64,000 bases of DNA from Polyangiaceae bacterium (GTDB taxonomy: Bacteria > Myxococcota_A > Polyangia > Polyangiales > Polyangiaceae): assembly GCA_009781005.1 (NCBI GenBank), contig WQYX01000011.1, positions 1-64,000 of the forward strand, in the 5' to 3' direction. Numbering within the stretch: the first letter of the stretch is position 1; the number at the start of each line of letters is the position of its first letter. The position numbers were made by a program, and so were the translations under genes. Shown in pieces: positions 1-50,217 of this stretch. The notes below the pieces were generated by a model. That model was not told where the DNA came from, made no database searches, and worked only from the letters and a program-made list of their open reading frames with translations.

Positions 1-154
1 AGACGGGCCGATCCTCTTGCTGCGAAGGGCGTACGGCGCTTCTCGGACCTGCGGCGTACGTACAAGTACGCCTCGGTCCTGCGATGCGGCGTGCGCCCTT
101 CTCGCTGCGGTCTCGGCCGTCTGTAGAAATCGCGTCATGAATTATCCGGGCTAG
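1..154 (-). repeat. Family A MITE-like element, copy A1 (runs off the window)
   Basis: Read on the minus strand this begins CTAGCCCGGATAATTCATGA and then follows, base for base with few changes, the 184-base elements at 19027-19210 and 50034-50217. It includes the central GTAC-rich palindrome near 54-71. The far terminal repeat lies beyond base 1. Its CTAG (151-154) coincides with the CTAG inside the family B arm at 151-192, so A1 appears to have inserted into a B element. Confidence 0.75.
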
Positions 155-16868: not shown

Positions 16869-17609
16869 ATGGCTTTCGTTTCGTCCATCCGCATCGAGCT
16901 TCAAAACTCCGTGGTGCAGACGCCGCCGGCTGCGGCCCCTGCCCGGCTCGATCCCATGCAGCTCGTTCTTCAGGCGTCGATTCCGGTGAAGCTCGTGCTC
17001 GTCTTGCTCGTCGCATTTTCGATTCTCTGTTGGATCGTCATCGCGGCCAAGGCGCTGCACATCATGCGCGCGCGCACGGACTCCGAGAAGTTCATGAAGG
17101 CCTTCGATGCCGCCGGATCGCTCGACGCACTCGCGAAGCAAGGGCTCGCAGCATTTCGAGGATCACCCTTCGCACGCATCTTCGCGACGGGCTACGACGA
17201 GATGGTGCGCCTCACCCGCGGCGAGCGCGGCAAGCGACTCGACGATGCGCAGGGCACGCACGTCGAGAGCATCACGCGGCGCGCCGCTGCCGCCGAGATC
17301 ACCCACCTCGAATCTTGGATGAGTCTTCTCGGCACCATTGGATCCACCGCGCCGTTCATCGGCCTCTTCGGCACCGTCTACGGCATCATGGATGCATTCC
17401 TCAGCATTGGAAACCAGCAGAGCGCGAACCTCCCGGTCGTCGCGCCAAAAATCGCCGAGGCGCTCATCGCCACCGCGATCGGTCTCGTCGCCGCCATCCC
17501 TGCGGTCATGGCGTTCAACTATTTCTCGCGTCGCGTGGGTGAGCTCGCCGACATCATGGACGCATTCGCCGCAGACGTTGCATCGCGCGCGAAACTCGGA
17601 GGCGTGTAG
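16869..17609 (+). CDS. tolQ: TolQ/ExbB-type proton channel protein
   Basis: 246 residues. The inner-membrane component of the Tol system uses proton flow to energise outer-membrane constriction. TM1 lies near 36-58 (PVKLVLVLLVAFSILCWIVI), and a cytoplasmic loop follows. TM2 and TM3 (LLGTIGSTAPFIGLFGTVYGIM near 155-176 and EALIATAIGLVAAIPAVMAFNYF near 197-219) carry the conserved channel threonines and GLFGTVxGI signature. Two bases separate it from tolR. The tolB downstream argues for Tol rather than ExbB. Confidence 0.92.
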   Translation: MAFVSSIRIELQNSVVQTPPAAAPARLDPMQLVLQASIPVKLVLVLLVAFSILCWIVIAAKALHIMRARTDSEKFMKAFDAAGSLDALAKQGLAAFRGSPFARIFATGYDEMVRLTRGERGKRLDDAQGTHVESITRRAAAAEITHLESWMSLLGTIGSTAPFIGLFGTVYGIMDAFLSIGNQQSANLPVVAPKIAEALIATAIGLVAAIPAVMAFNYFSRRVGELADIMDAFAADVASRAKLGGV

Positions 17610-17611
17610 CC

Positions 17612-18040
17612 ATGAGCATGGGTACGAGCGGCGGCGCAAGGAGTCGTCGCCGCACGGGCGGCATGAACGACATCAACGTGACGCCGCTCATCGACGTCAT
17701 GCTCGTCTTGCTCGTCATCTTCATGGTGACTGCGCCACTTCTCACGACGGGCGTGCAAGTCGATCTGCCAAAGGTGCGAAGCTCGCCGATGCAGGCCGAC
17801 GATTCGAAGATGCTCGTCATCATCACCGTCGACGAGCACGTCTATCTCGGCAAAGACGAAATCACGGGAGCGGTCGAAGAGAAGCTCAAAACGAACGCGC
17901 GACTTCAAGAGGAGCGCGAGCTCTTCGTGCAAGCCGACGAGAACGTGAAGTACGGCGCCGTTCTTCGCGTCATGGCAGCAGCGCGTAGCGCGGGCGTTGA
18001 AAAACTTGGGATGATCACGGACCCCCTGGTGGTGAAATAA
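17612..18040 (+). CDS. tolR: TolR/ExbD-type proton channel protein
   Basis: 142 residues: short basic N-terminus, NDINVTPLIDVMLVLLVIFMV with the essential aspartate in the single TM helix (around residue 29), then a periplasmic domain ending in MAAARSAGVEKLGMITDP. It pairs with TolQ in the proton channel. It is followed by the 144-base family B repeat that separates it from the TonB/TolA-like gene. Confidence 0.93.
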   Translation: MSMGTSGGARSRRRTGGMNDINVTPLIDVMLVLLVIFMVTAPLLTTGVQVDLPKVRSSPMQADDSKMLVIITVDEHVYLGKDEITGAVEEKLKTNARLQEERELFVQADENVKYGAVLRVMAAARSAGVEKLGMITDPLVVK

Positions 18041-18058
18041 GGACGTTAACGAACTGCC

Positions 18059-18202
18059 TAAACGCGTTTGATAACCGTCGCGAGCGACGCGAGGCCAAGG
18101 CGGGCCCGAGGAGCCCGTGTAAGTGTACTTCTCGCACATGCGCAGGCACCGCAGGGCCCAACGCTGGCATCGCGGCGCGCAGCAGGTTAGGAAACGCGTT
18201 TA
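18059..18202 (+). repeat. Family B hairpin repeat, copy B3, inside the tol operon
   Basis: Starts TAAACGCGTTTGATAACCGT and ends GCAGGTTAGGAAACGCGTTTA, so the outer arms (AAACGCGTTT) and the CCGT/AGGT blocks pair. The centre is AAGT-GT-ACTT. It fills the tolR to tolA-like gap and ends on the base before the GTG start at 18203. Its own TAGGAAA (from 18188) is the only Shine-Dalgarno-like sequence near that start. Confidence 0.78.
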
Positions 18203-19018
18203 GTGAAGTTGCCTGGTGTCCCTTACGAACCACGTTACACGTCCGACGAGCTCACGGTCGGCATCGTGGTGGGAATTGCGCTGCATTTGCTTGCCATTGG
18301 TCCCTTCCTCGTGAAAGCAGCGTTCCCTTCGGCCAATGAGGTAGAGGAAAAGCCTCTCGTTGCGAGGCCCATCGTTCAGGCGTCACTGCTCAAACTTGGC
18401 AAACCGATCGATCCGCGGAAGCTTCCCGACCGGCTCGTTCCTCGCGCACGTACCGCGCCGAAGCACGAGATCGTCGCGTCGAGCGAAGAGCCAAAAGAGC
18501 CAGCGCTGAAGAAAGACGCGGGCGCGCCTCCTCCTCCGAACACGCAAGAGTCCGACATCGAACACCTCATTGCCAAGAGCGATCCGTTCGCCGAGGACGC
18601 GGGCAGAGCACGCGCCGAAGAAGGCAATCCGGGCGGCGTGGACGGCGGGACCGAGACGGATCCAAACAAAGTCCGAGCCGGCGATATGTACGCCACGCAA
18701 CTGAGTCAGTTCTTCGGGCAGCGCCTCACGGTGCCTACCATCATCCCCGTCAACGAAGCTCGAAAGCTGTGCGTTTTATTGCAGGTTACACTCAATCGCA
18801 ACATGATCATCTGGTACATCCGCCAGAACCCCGTGATCTCGAGCGGCAACGATCTCTTCGACGACGCCGCTCGTTCCATGCTCCAAAAGCTCTTGGACGA
18901 CCGCACGCCGCTGCCTGAACCTCCGAAGGAGCTTGCAGAACTTTATCGCGGGCGCGTCGTGCAACTTGTCATTCAGGGCGATCCTCATGGAGACTCTTCG
19001 CGATGCATGCCCAAGTAA
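18203..19018 (+). CDS. TonB/TolA-like periplasm-spanning protein
   Basis: 271 residues: short cytoplasmic N-terminus, one TM helix near 18-40 (VGIVVGIALHLLAIGPFLVKAA), a Pro/Glu/Lys-rich linker, and a C-terminal domain (about 165-265) with the TonB/TolA-like pattern VPTIIPVNEARKLCVLLQVTLNRNMIIW ... SGNDLFDDAARSMLQKL. Its place between tolR and tolB makes it the TolA-equivalent linking TolQR to the outer membrane. The GTG start directly abuts repeat B3, so the element may supply or disturb its ribosome-binding site. It overlaps tolB by 16 bases. Confidence 0.8.
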   Translation: MKLPGVPYEPRYTSDELTVGIVVGIALHLLAIGPFLVKAAFPSANEVEEKPLVARPIVQASLLKLGKPIDPRKLPDRLVPRARTAPKHEIVASSEEPKEPALKKDAGAPPPPNTQESDIEHLIAKSDPFAEDAGRARAEEGNPGGVDGGTETDPNKVRAGDMYATQLSQFFGQRLTVPTIIPVNEARKLCVLLQVTLNRNMIIWYIRQNPVISSGNDLFDDAARSMLQKLLDDRTPLPEPPKELAELYRGRVVQLVIQGDPHGDSSRCMPK

Positions 19019-20451
19019 CTCGTCCCCTCGCCCGGAGAATTCATGACGCGATTGCGGTAGAAGGCCGAGACCGCAGCGAAAAGGGCGCACGCCGTATCGC
19101 AGGACCGAGGCGTACTGTACGTACACCGCAGGTCCGACAAAAGCCGTACGACCTTTGCAGCAAAGGGATCGGCTCTTCTAAGCGGAGTCGTCATGAATTC
19201 TCCGGGCTAGTCGTTCTCGCTGGCATTGCGGCTCTCGTGCTCACGCTGGCACTGCCAGCAGGTGCGCAGGCACCTGCTGGCAGTGACGGAGCGACAACGA
19301 TCGTCGTGTCCGGAGGAACGCGATCGCTCTTCAAGATTGCCGTTGCGCCGCCCGTTGGAGATCCGGCTGTCGCGAGCACCGTGGTCGACACGATGACTCG
19401 TGACTTCACGCTCTCGAGTCTCTTTCAGGTGTTGGATCCTCGAAGCTTTACCGCGAACCTCGTGCAAGAAGGCATGTCGATCGATCCGTCTTCATGGCGC
19501 AACGTGGGCGCCGAAGGCGTCATCAAGGGCGGTGCGGCCATGCGCGGATCGAACGTGCATATCGAACTTCGCCTCTTCGTCGTATCGCGCGGCCCCGACG
19601 CTGTGCTGAAGAGAGAATACGACGTTTCACCCAATGACGTTCGCAGCGCGATTCATCAATTCGCCAACGAAGTCGTCAAGTACTTCACCGGCACATCCGC
19701 AAGTTTCGGCTCGCGCCTCGTTTTCAGCGCCACAACGGGTCCCGGGCAGAAGGGCATCTTCACGATTGACAGCGACGGGCACGGGCTTGCTCGTCTGCCA
19801 ACGACGTCGAATGTCGCGCTCGCACCTGCGGTCGGCCCTGGCGGCATCTACTATGCCGGCGGGCTTCCCAACGGCGGATACGATCTCTTCAAAGTTGGAA
19901 ATCCGGTGGCGGTCCTAAACCACGCGGGGCTCATTTTTGGCGCTGCATTCGGTGGCGGAAAAATGGCCGTCGTCATCGCGCAAGCCGGGCAAAGCGACAT
20001 CTGGGTGGGCTCGCCGGATGGCACGAATCTCTCGAAGATCACGCACGGCGGCCTCAACACGCACCCGGCATTCGGCCCCGGCGGACAGCTCGCGTACGTC
20101 TCCAATCAGGGCGGCAATCCGCAGATTTACGTGGACGGAAAGCGCACGAGCTTCCGGGGCACGTACAACATGGCGCCTGCATGGTGCAATGATCCGGAAG
20201 GGGTGAAGATCCTCTTCATGGGGCGCGAGGGCGGCACGTGGGATATCTTCAGCACGGATCCGTCCGGCTCGAACATCAGGCGTCTAACGCAAGATCAGGG
20301 GTCGAATACGTATCCTGCATGCTCGCCGGACGGGCGAAGTGTCGCTTTCTTTTCCACACGTGGCGGCCTGTATATATCCAATATGCAAGGCCAAAATCAG
20401 CAAAAGATTGCCAATGTGACGGGCGAGAGCCTCCGCTGGGAAGGCAATTGA
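19003..20451 (+). CDS. tolB: Tol-Pal system beta-propeller TolB, signal peptide split by an in-frame MITE
   Basis: 482 residues as read. The mature part has the TolB N-domain (TTIVVSGGTRSLFKIAVAPP...) and then propeller repeats with NPQIYV, GGTWDIFSTDPSGSNIRRLT and ACSPDGRSVAFFSTRGG. The only in-frame start is ATG 19003. Residues 9-68 are encoded by family A element A2 (19027-19210). Removing 180 bases between its CTAG-like ends rejoins MHAQVTRPL directly to VVLAGIAALVL, giving a normal Sec signal peptide that would be cleaved after GAQA. So the present protein carries a 60-residue insertion in its signal peptide. Whether it is still exported is unknown. No pal gene follows in the window. Confidence 0.9.
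   Translation: MHAQVTRPLARRIHDAIAVEGRDRSEKGARRIAGPRRTVRTPQVRQKPYDLCSKGIGSSKRSRHEFSGLVVLAGIAALVLTLALPAGAQAPAGSDGATTIVVSGGTRSLFKIAVAPPVGDPAVASTVVDTMTRDFTLSSLFQVLDPRSFTANLVQEGMSIDPSSWRNVGAEGVIKGGAAMRGSNVHIELRLFVVSRGPDAVLKREYDVSPNDVRSAIHQFANEVVKYFTGTSASFGSRLVFSATTGPGQKGIFTIDSDGHGLARLPTTSNVALAPAVGPGGIYYAGGLPNGGYDLFKVGNPVAVLNHAGLIFGAAFGGGKMAVVIAQAGQSDIWVGSPDGTNLSKITHGGLNTHPAFGPGGQLAYVSNQGGNPQIYVDGKRTSFRGTYNMAPAWCNDPEGVKILFMGREGGTWDIFSTDPSGSNIRRLTQDQGSNTYPACSPDGRSVAFFSTRGGLYISNMQGQNQQKIANVTGESLRWEGN
19027..19210 (+). mobile_element. Family A MITE-like element, copy A2, inserted in tolB
   Basis: 184 bases from CTCG (19027) to CTAG (19207-19210), the same length as copy A3. The terminal inverted repeats are GCCCGGAGAATTCATGACG and its complement at the right end. 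There is no open frame of its own; the tolB frame simply reads through it. CTCG/CTAG ends fit a 4-base YTAR-type target duplication, as known for IS5-type transposases, with one later change. That assignment is inference. Confidence 0.85.
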
Positions 20452-20462
20452 CGCTCGTAGCG

Positions 20463-20503
20463 TAGCCTTCTACCGCAATCGCGTCATGAAGGATTCGGGC
20501 TAG
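20463..20503 (-). repeat. Family A relic, copy A4
   Basis: The minus strand reads CTAGCCCGAATCCTTCATGA, then CGCGATTGCGGTAGAAGGC: the left end of family A, truncated after about 41 bases. It lies 12 bases after tolB and joins motif C at 20509. Confidence 0.65.
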
Positions 20504-50013: not shown

Positions 50014-50034
50014 TCGCGACAAATCGAAAGTGGC
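50014..50034 (-). repeat. Motif C, variant copy
   Basis: CGCGACAAATCGAAAGTGGC differs by two bases from the exact motif C copies and abuts the CTAG of MITE A3. Just before it, CACCGCAGGCCCCAACGACGA resembles the family B right arm. Confidence 0.5.
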
Positions 50035-50217
50035 TAGCCCGGATCATTCATGACGCGATTGCGGTAGAAGGCCGAGACCGCAGCGAGAAGGGCGCACGCC
50101 GCATCGCAGGACCGAGGCGTACTGTACGTACGCCGCAGGTCCGACAAAAGCCGTACGACCTTCGCAGCAAAGGAATCGGCTCTTCTAAGCGGAGTCGTCA
50201 TGAATGATCCGGGCTAG
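50034..50217 (+). mobile_element. Family A MITE-like element, copy A3
   Basis: 184 bases bounded by CTAG on both sides. The terminal inverted repeats are CTAGCCCGGATCATTCATGA plus CG at the left and the exact complement at the right. The interior is nearly the same as copy A2. The right CTAG also holds the TAG stop of the FHA-ABC gene (50214-50216 on the minus strand); before insertion the single CTAG would have given the same stop. Confidence 0.85.

Follow-up and report, generated by a model that had tools for sequence, protein, structure and literature searches.

Does the tolB gene of a bacterium of the family Polyangiaceae carry a mobile repeat in frame within its signal peptide, and is such an insertion kept because it is useful or because it does no harm? 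The window analysed here, a stretch of 64,000 nucleotides, is contig C11 of a genome (G000) of 4.77 Mb in 199 contigs. Positions 16869-20451 hold tol-type genes, namely a MotA/TolQ/ExbB gene, an ExbD/TolR gene, an unnamed ORF at the TolA position, and tolB (19003..20451, plus strand), whose product of 482 aa, including the insert, matches TolB_N and PD40. The ORF at the TolA/TonB position (18203..19018, plus strand), for which a Pfam search gave no match, overlaps the tolB start by 16 bp, and this junction is the same in G009, a termite-gut member of the Polyangiaceae and the closest relative of G000 among the genomes compared. G009 matches a public Polyangiaceae genome (contig WQZB01000074, isolate Emb289P4bin44) whose host is the humus-feeding termite Embiratermes neotenicus; the sample code of this G009-type isolate appears in PMC7024585. 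Both genomes are small (4.2-4.8 Mb) compared with those of most congeners (6.6-11.9 Mb). In the reading that we favour, with a probability of about 80 %, in-frame insertions of the element are tolerated as extensions of the n-region of export signals, tolB being one of at least four survivors.

The 184-bp element and its copies

The element within tolB (19027..19210, plus strand) is a MITE-like palindrome of 184 bp. A sequence-only reading of the window had placed its CTCG and CTAG ends exactly 180 bases apart, and this spacing was confirmed, CTCG being located at 19027-19030 and CTAG at 19207-19210. The termini are formed by an inverted repeat of 22 nt, 95% complementary, with the left copy CTCGCCCGGAGAATTCATGACG (family consensus CTAGCCCGGATNATTCATGACG) at 19027..19048 on the plus strand and the right copy, whose last bases are CTAG, at 19189..19210 on the minus strand. 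Folding of the whole element is much stronger than that of shuffled sequence (z = -7.8). Searches of G000 returned 100 matches to the core and 186 to the ends, as against 0 for a reversed control pattern, and the tolB repeat is therefore not a product of chance. Copies or fragments were collected stretch by stretch, and 93 of them were read and aligned; many of these stand at the end of a contig, where the repeat interrupted the assembly. Within the window, a second full copy (A3; 50034..50217, plus strand) is essentially intergenic and has a TGA in the tolB frame, and a third (1..154, minus strand) is truncated by the contig start. In addition, a solo end fragment (20465..20503, minus strand) lies a few bases 3' of the tolB stop codon, so that element sequence is present at both ends of tolB.

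Evidence for mobility is provided by a second, unrelated repeat of G000 that served as a test site. Where this repeat is empty, it reads GCGAATCGAGG-CTAG-GGCGGAGCG, with a single CTAG; where it is filled, it reads GCGAATCGAGG-CTAGCCCGG...CCGGGCTAG-GGCGGAGCG, with CTAG at each end. The element thus enters at CTAG, leaves CTAG on both sides and adds 180 bp. The outer four bases vary in some copies (CGAG, CAAG, CTTA and others), and since they are not identical, a 4-bp duplication and a TA duplication give the same picture. With a terminal inverted repeat of 22 bp, a length of 184 bp, about 100 copies, no transposase gene, and a target site showing one CTAG when empty and two when filled, the repeat is a mobile, non-autonomous, MITE-like element; the sequence-only reading had called it a MITE. 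A second repeat family (GTCGCGAGCGAATCGAGG-CTAG-GGCGGAGCGCGAGGAGCCCGCG...; loci L003, L008, L020, L021, L090 and others) often hosts the element, and an empty copy of this family is found at 18060-18200 of the window, upstream of the gene at the TolA position.

Candidates for an autonomous partner were sought in G000 and G009. Transposases of the IS1380 type and of the IS630 type were rejected, as neither genome has a match to DDE_Tnp_1_4 or to DDE_3, respectively. Lone ends were considered as margins of an autonomous element, and the adjoining ORFs proved to be ordinary genes or to have no Pfam matches, none giving a match to a transposase family. An Rfam search returned matches at chance level only, and viral contigs contained one lone end, which was uninformative.

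tolB before and after the insertion

Excision of 19027-19206 from tolB yields MHAQVTRPL-VVLAGIAALVLTLALPAGAQA, a textbook signal peptide, just as the sequence-only reading had predicted for the removal of one unit. The original start and n-region, MHAQVTRP (19003..19026, plus strand), align with MHAK... of G009, and the original hydrophobic and cleavage regions (LVVLAGIAALVLTLALPAGAQA) follow at 19207..19272 (plus strand). That the gene as it was before the insertion can be reconstructed is borne out by the relatives, from which the empty state can be read directly. TolB of G009 starts MHAKMICFVLHASAILAAGTAGLAF, and at the DNA level the end of the upstream gene and the start of tolB are nearly identical in the two genomes, after which G009 continues with MHAKMICFVLHASAILAAGTAGLAFTL.... 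In all 11 congeners searched (11/11), the signal peptide of TolB is of the ordinary kind and the insert is absent, and the same holds for the family members with a readable tolB start. The comparison of TolB N-termini in relatives had been proposed together with the sequence-only reading, which named the presence of the same 60 residues in all of them as contrary evidence; none carries them. Judged by these alignments, the insertion is recent and restricted to this species among the genomes compared.

The ORF 19003-20451 continues across the element, the insertion adding, as had been claimed, 60 codons (LARRIHDAIAVEGRDRSEKGARRIAGPRRTVRTPQVRQKPYDLCSKGIGSSKRSRHEFSG) without a stop between the start of tolB and its hydrophobic export segment. 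The insert contains 16 K+R versus 6 D+E and ends with the residues KRSRHEFSGL, directly after which comes the hydrophobic peak. More generally, the open frame of the element encodes LARxIHDAI...GRDRSEKGARR...RTVRTPQ...SRHEFSGL, with charged residues close to the right end. The mature part of TolB is conserved. Between G000 and G009, dN is 0.096 and dS 1.04, and TolB of G000 evolves no faster than that of G009 when measured against nine other genomes; under such ordinary purifying selection, tolB is not a pseudogene.

Other in-frame insertions

In-frame cases were sought by translating every complete copy with its flanks, as well as copies cut by contig ends. Besides tolB, three in-frame copies can be compared with homologs in the empty state, and strand and frame are the same in all. 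The first is a lipoprotein gene (contigs C6 and C81) whose signal peptide reads MIVASR-[element]-LGAWISALFVSSLSFSIAAC. This case spans a contig break, at which a 108-bp identical overlap allows two possible partners, and the decision comes from a tandem paralog on C81 that lacks the element and aligns without gaps over the insertion junction. The tandem paralogs on C81 (L210, L221) are 76% identical, and only one of them contains the element. In the second case, a type IV prepilin gene on C72, the element is located immediately before G|FTLVELAVVVTIVGVLAVIAVV, and the leaders of homologs in other congeners are short and end in G|FTLVE; the copy on C72 has a net length change of 9 bp that keeps the frame. 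The third, on C66, reads MGLRRHGVAHLRRSLRSLFRR-[element]-FGIALIVSAPLVFGPAG, the insertion lying at an N-terminal membrane segment, and with 180 bp omitted, the alignment to the ortholog in G009 is gapless over 285 bp. The insertion in tolB is real, as the sequence-only reading had it, and belongs to a set of at least four in-frame copies, all in export signals, which that reading had missed.

A fifth in-frame copy, on C1 at about 96 kb, is part of an ORF for which no homolog was found and is not located at an export signal. On C69 (L030), the element lies inside a PIN-like toxin-type gene, the rest of whose domain is in another frame; this gene has therefore probably been broken and would exemplify the harmful kind of insertion. 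Open copies at a HAD hydrolase gene on C55 and on C53, C57, C30 and C7 were rejected, because the start of the gene lies beyond the element or because the flanking sequence does not look coding. A copy in G009 is in frame within an ORF of 431 aa (L072, G009:C54, 903-2195), which by eye resembles a degenerate Ser/Thr kinase and has no Pfam match. Like the copy on C1, it shares strand and frame with the tolB insertion. A transporter-like ORF on C116 (L269, 1-1100), apparently of the MFS type, continues in frame through sequence of the second repeat family and from there into the element; its other half, beyond the contig end, was not found.

Reading frame and position of surviving copies

The element can be crossed in two phases of CTAG only, because the third creates a stop, and in one of these two the element almost always contains a stop, on either strand. 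The remaining frame, CTA|G, is free of stops in 18 of the 37 complete copies on the tolB-type strand and in 7/37 on the other strand. The sequence-only reading had pointed to copy A3, whose right end GAA TGA carries a stop in the tolB frame, and had supposed that read-through may have been selected in tolB. The stop in A3 is present, in the same frame; TGA occurs, however, in 25 of the 65 copies having that codon, and as a common variant of the right end its absence from tolB needs no special history. Moreover, a gain of 180 bp at CTAG keeps the frame in every case, and with about half of the copies free of stops in one phase, an open frame is what any surviving insertion requires. Selected read-through, as supposed, was not supported.

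In 464 kb of G000, 42 CTA|G sites are located within ORFs, a rough background count because genes were taken as ORFs and not from a trained gene finder. Five of the 42 fall within 40 codons of the start, and not one of the five precedes a hydrophobic segment. Among the in-frame insertions, 4/5 lie just before a hydrophobic segment, with p about 0.001 for the early position, a criterion chosen after the cases were known. Since early sites before hydrophobic segments are almost absent, the supply of targets fails to explain the pattern, and survival of harmless insertions explains it.

Tolerance or benefit

The following sequence of events would account for these observations. The palindrome inserts at CTAG, leaving CTAG at both ends and adding 180 bp each time, and a gene reading CTA|G with the element in one orientation thereby gains about 60 mostly stop-free, arginine-rich codons. 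Where the element comes to lie after the start codon of an export signal and ahead of its hydrophobic segment, it would do no more than lengthen the n-region and add positive charges beside that segment. Sec, lipoprotein and prepilin signals would probably still function, and the insert would be removed with the signal peptide. The same insertion in a mature domain would break the protein and be lost, and the copy in tolB would be one of at least four surviving insertions. Mobility, the empty sites, the frame and position of the copies and the conservation of mature TolB are shown by the data; that TolB is exported despite so extended an n-region, and that the cell puts up with the insert without profiting from it, we infer.

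Improbable, though the best of the alternatives, is a domesticated insert, in which the basic peptide or the long mRNA hairpin would be useful to tolB (as an extended n-region, in translation pausing or in regulation) and would be selectively kept. The hairpin is indeed very stable, neither of the two substitutions private to the tolB copy (A3C in the CTA codon, G99A) alters a residue in the tolB frame, and the net length change of 9 bp in the prepilin copy preserves the frame. However, 7 of the 15 private changes in in-frame copies, one of which comes from the solo end beside tolB, are silent, as against an expected fraction of 0.29 and 8/32 elsewhere, which is not significant; with so few changes, selection on the encoded peptide is not supported, and domestication as stated in the sequence-only reading was not upheld. 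The insert is, in addition, restricted to one species, and in-frame survivors would look alike without any benefit. Very unlikely is translation of TolB from a downstream start, which would make the element 5' untranslated sequence only. A GTG is present at codon 79, but a start there would leave only a few residues of the hydrophobic segment, no other in-frame ATG, GTG or TTG lies between 19003 and this codon, and the start at 19003 is conserved in G009 together with the upstream GGAGA. An assembly artefact, by which unrelated contigs would have been joined across a repeat that does break many contigs of this metagenome-type assembly, is hardly credible, since both flanks of the insertion belong to one gene in the same order as in G009 and the gapless empty site of the C66 locus agrees.

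Beyond tolerated extension of the n-region lies a further idea, namely that in this lineage a phylum-wide element has shed its stop codons in one frame, at the ends as well as inside, and become a portable n-region that can enter Sec, lipoprotein and prepilin signals without disabling them, its spread through coding DNA being thereby favoured; we regard this idea as doubtful.

Related elements and comparison with known systems

Among 379 Myxococcota genomes, 12 from distant families contain the ends CTAGCCCGGATNATTCATGA, which often lie 184 bp apart and enclose diverged interiors. Such CTAG-ended elements (in G138, G311, G407, G150 and others) have near-identical ends and often the same length of 184 bp; in a Myxococcota-wide family of about 184 bp (L144, L147, L148, L149, L158), the ends and the centre GCGTACT..AGTACG are conserved, and genome G067 has about 400 element ends. 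In the other 184-bp Myxococcota copies that were read, translation across CTA|G runs into stops, usually a TAA in the right end, whereas the codon at this position is often open in copies of G000 and G009. The coding-compatible form may thus be peculiar to the G000/G009 lineage, a comparison based on few copies.

The genomes of Rickettsia are reduced relative to those of their relatives, and a host genome reduced in this way is one feature that G000 shares with the setting of the Rickettsia palindromic elements (RPE). Like the element described here, RPEs, its closest precedent (Ogata et al. 2000, 2002, as reviewed in PMC10969869), are small palindromes of about 150-180 bp that are present in many copies and in frame in unrelated genes, with a conserved encoded peptide. 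In-frame insertion with a conserved peptide was found for tolB, the lipoprotein, the prepilin and the C66 gene, all in the CTA|G frame of the plus strand. Phylum and sequence differ, the G000 element inserts at CTAG and has CTAG at both ends, and its supported cases sit in export signals, whereas RPEs have been reported in unrelated metabolic genes (PMC10969869). By the features tested, the element is a MITE working like an RPE; as no homology is claimed, it is not filed as one. The QMITEs of Coxiella (PMC5896051) are sometimes fused in frame to ORFs as well, but at gene ends (e.g. enhC) or in hypothetical ORFs, and by this description they are set apart by location. In a literature search that covered few subscription papers, no report was found of MITEs that lie in frame mainly within signal peptides. 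Rickettsia is the best-known source of mobile palindromes inserted in frame, and the Myxococcota now provide an independent case with clean empty sites and a pattern that the papers found do not mention, the supported survivors lying immediately ahead of the hydrophobic core in N-terminal export signals. This gives a testable rule for the entry of mobile DNA into coding sequence and a natural test of the maximum length of the n-region of a signal peptide.
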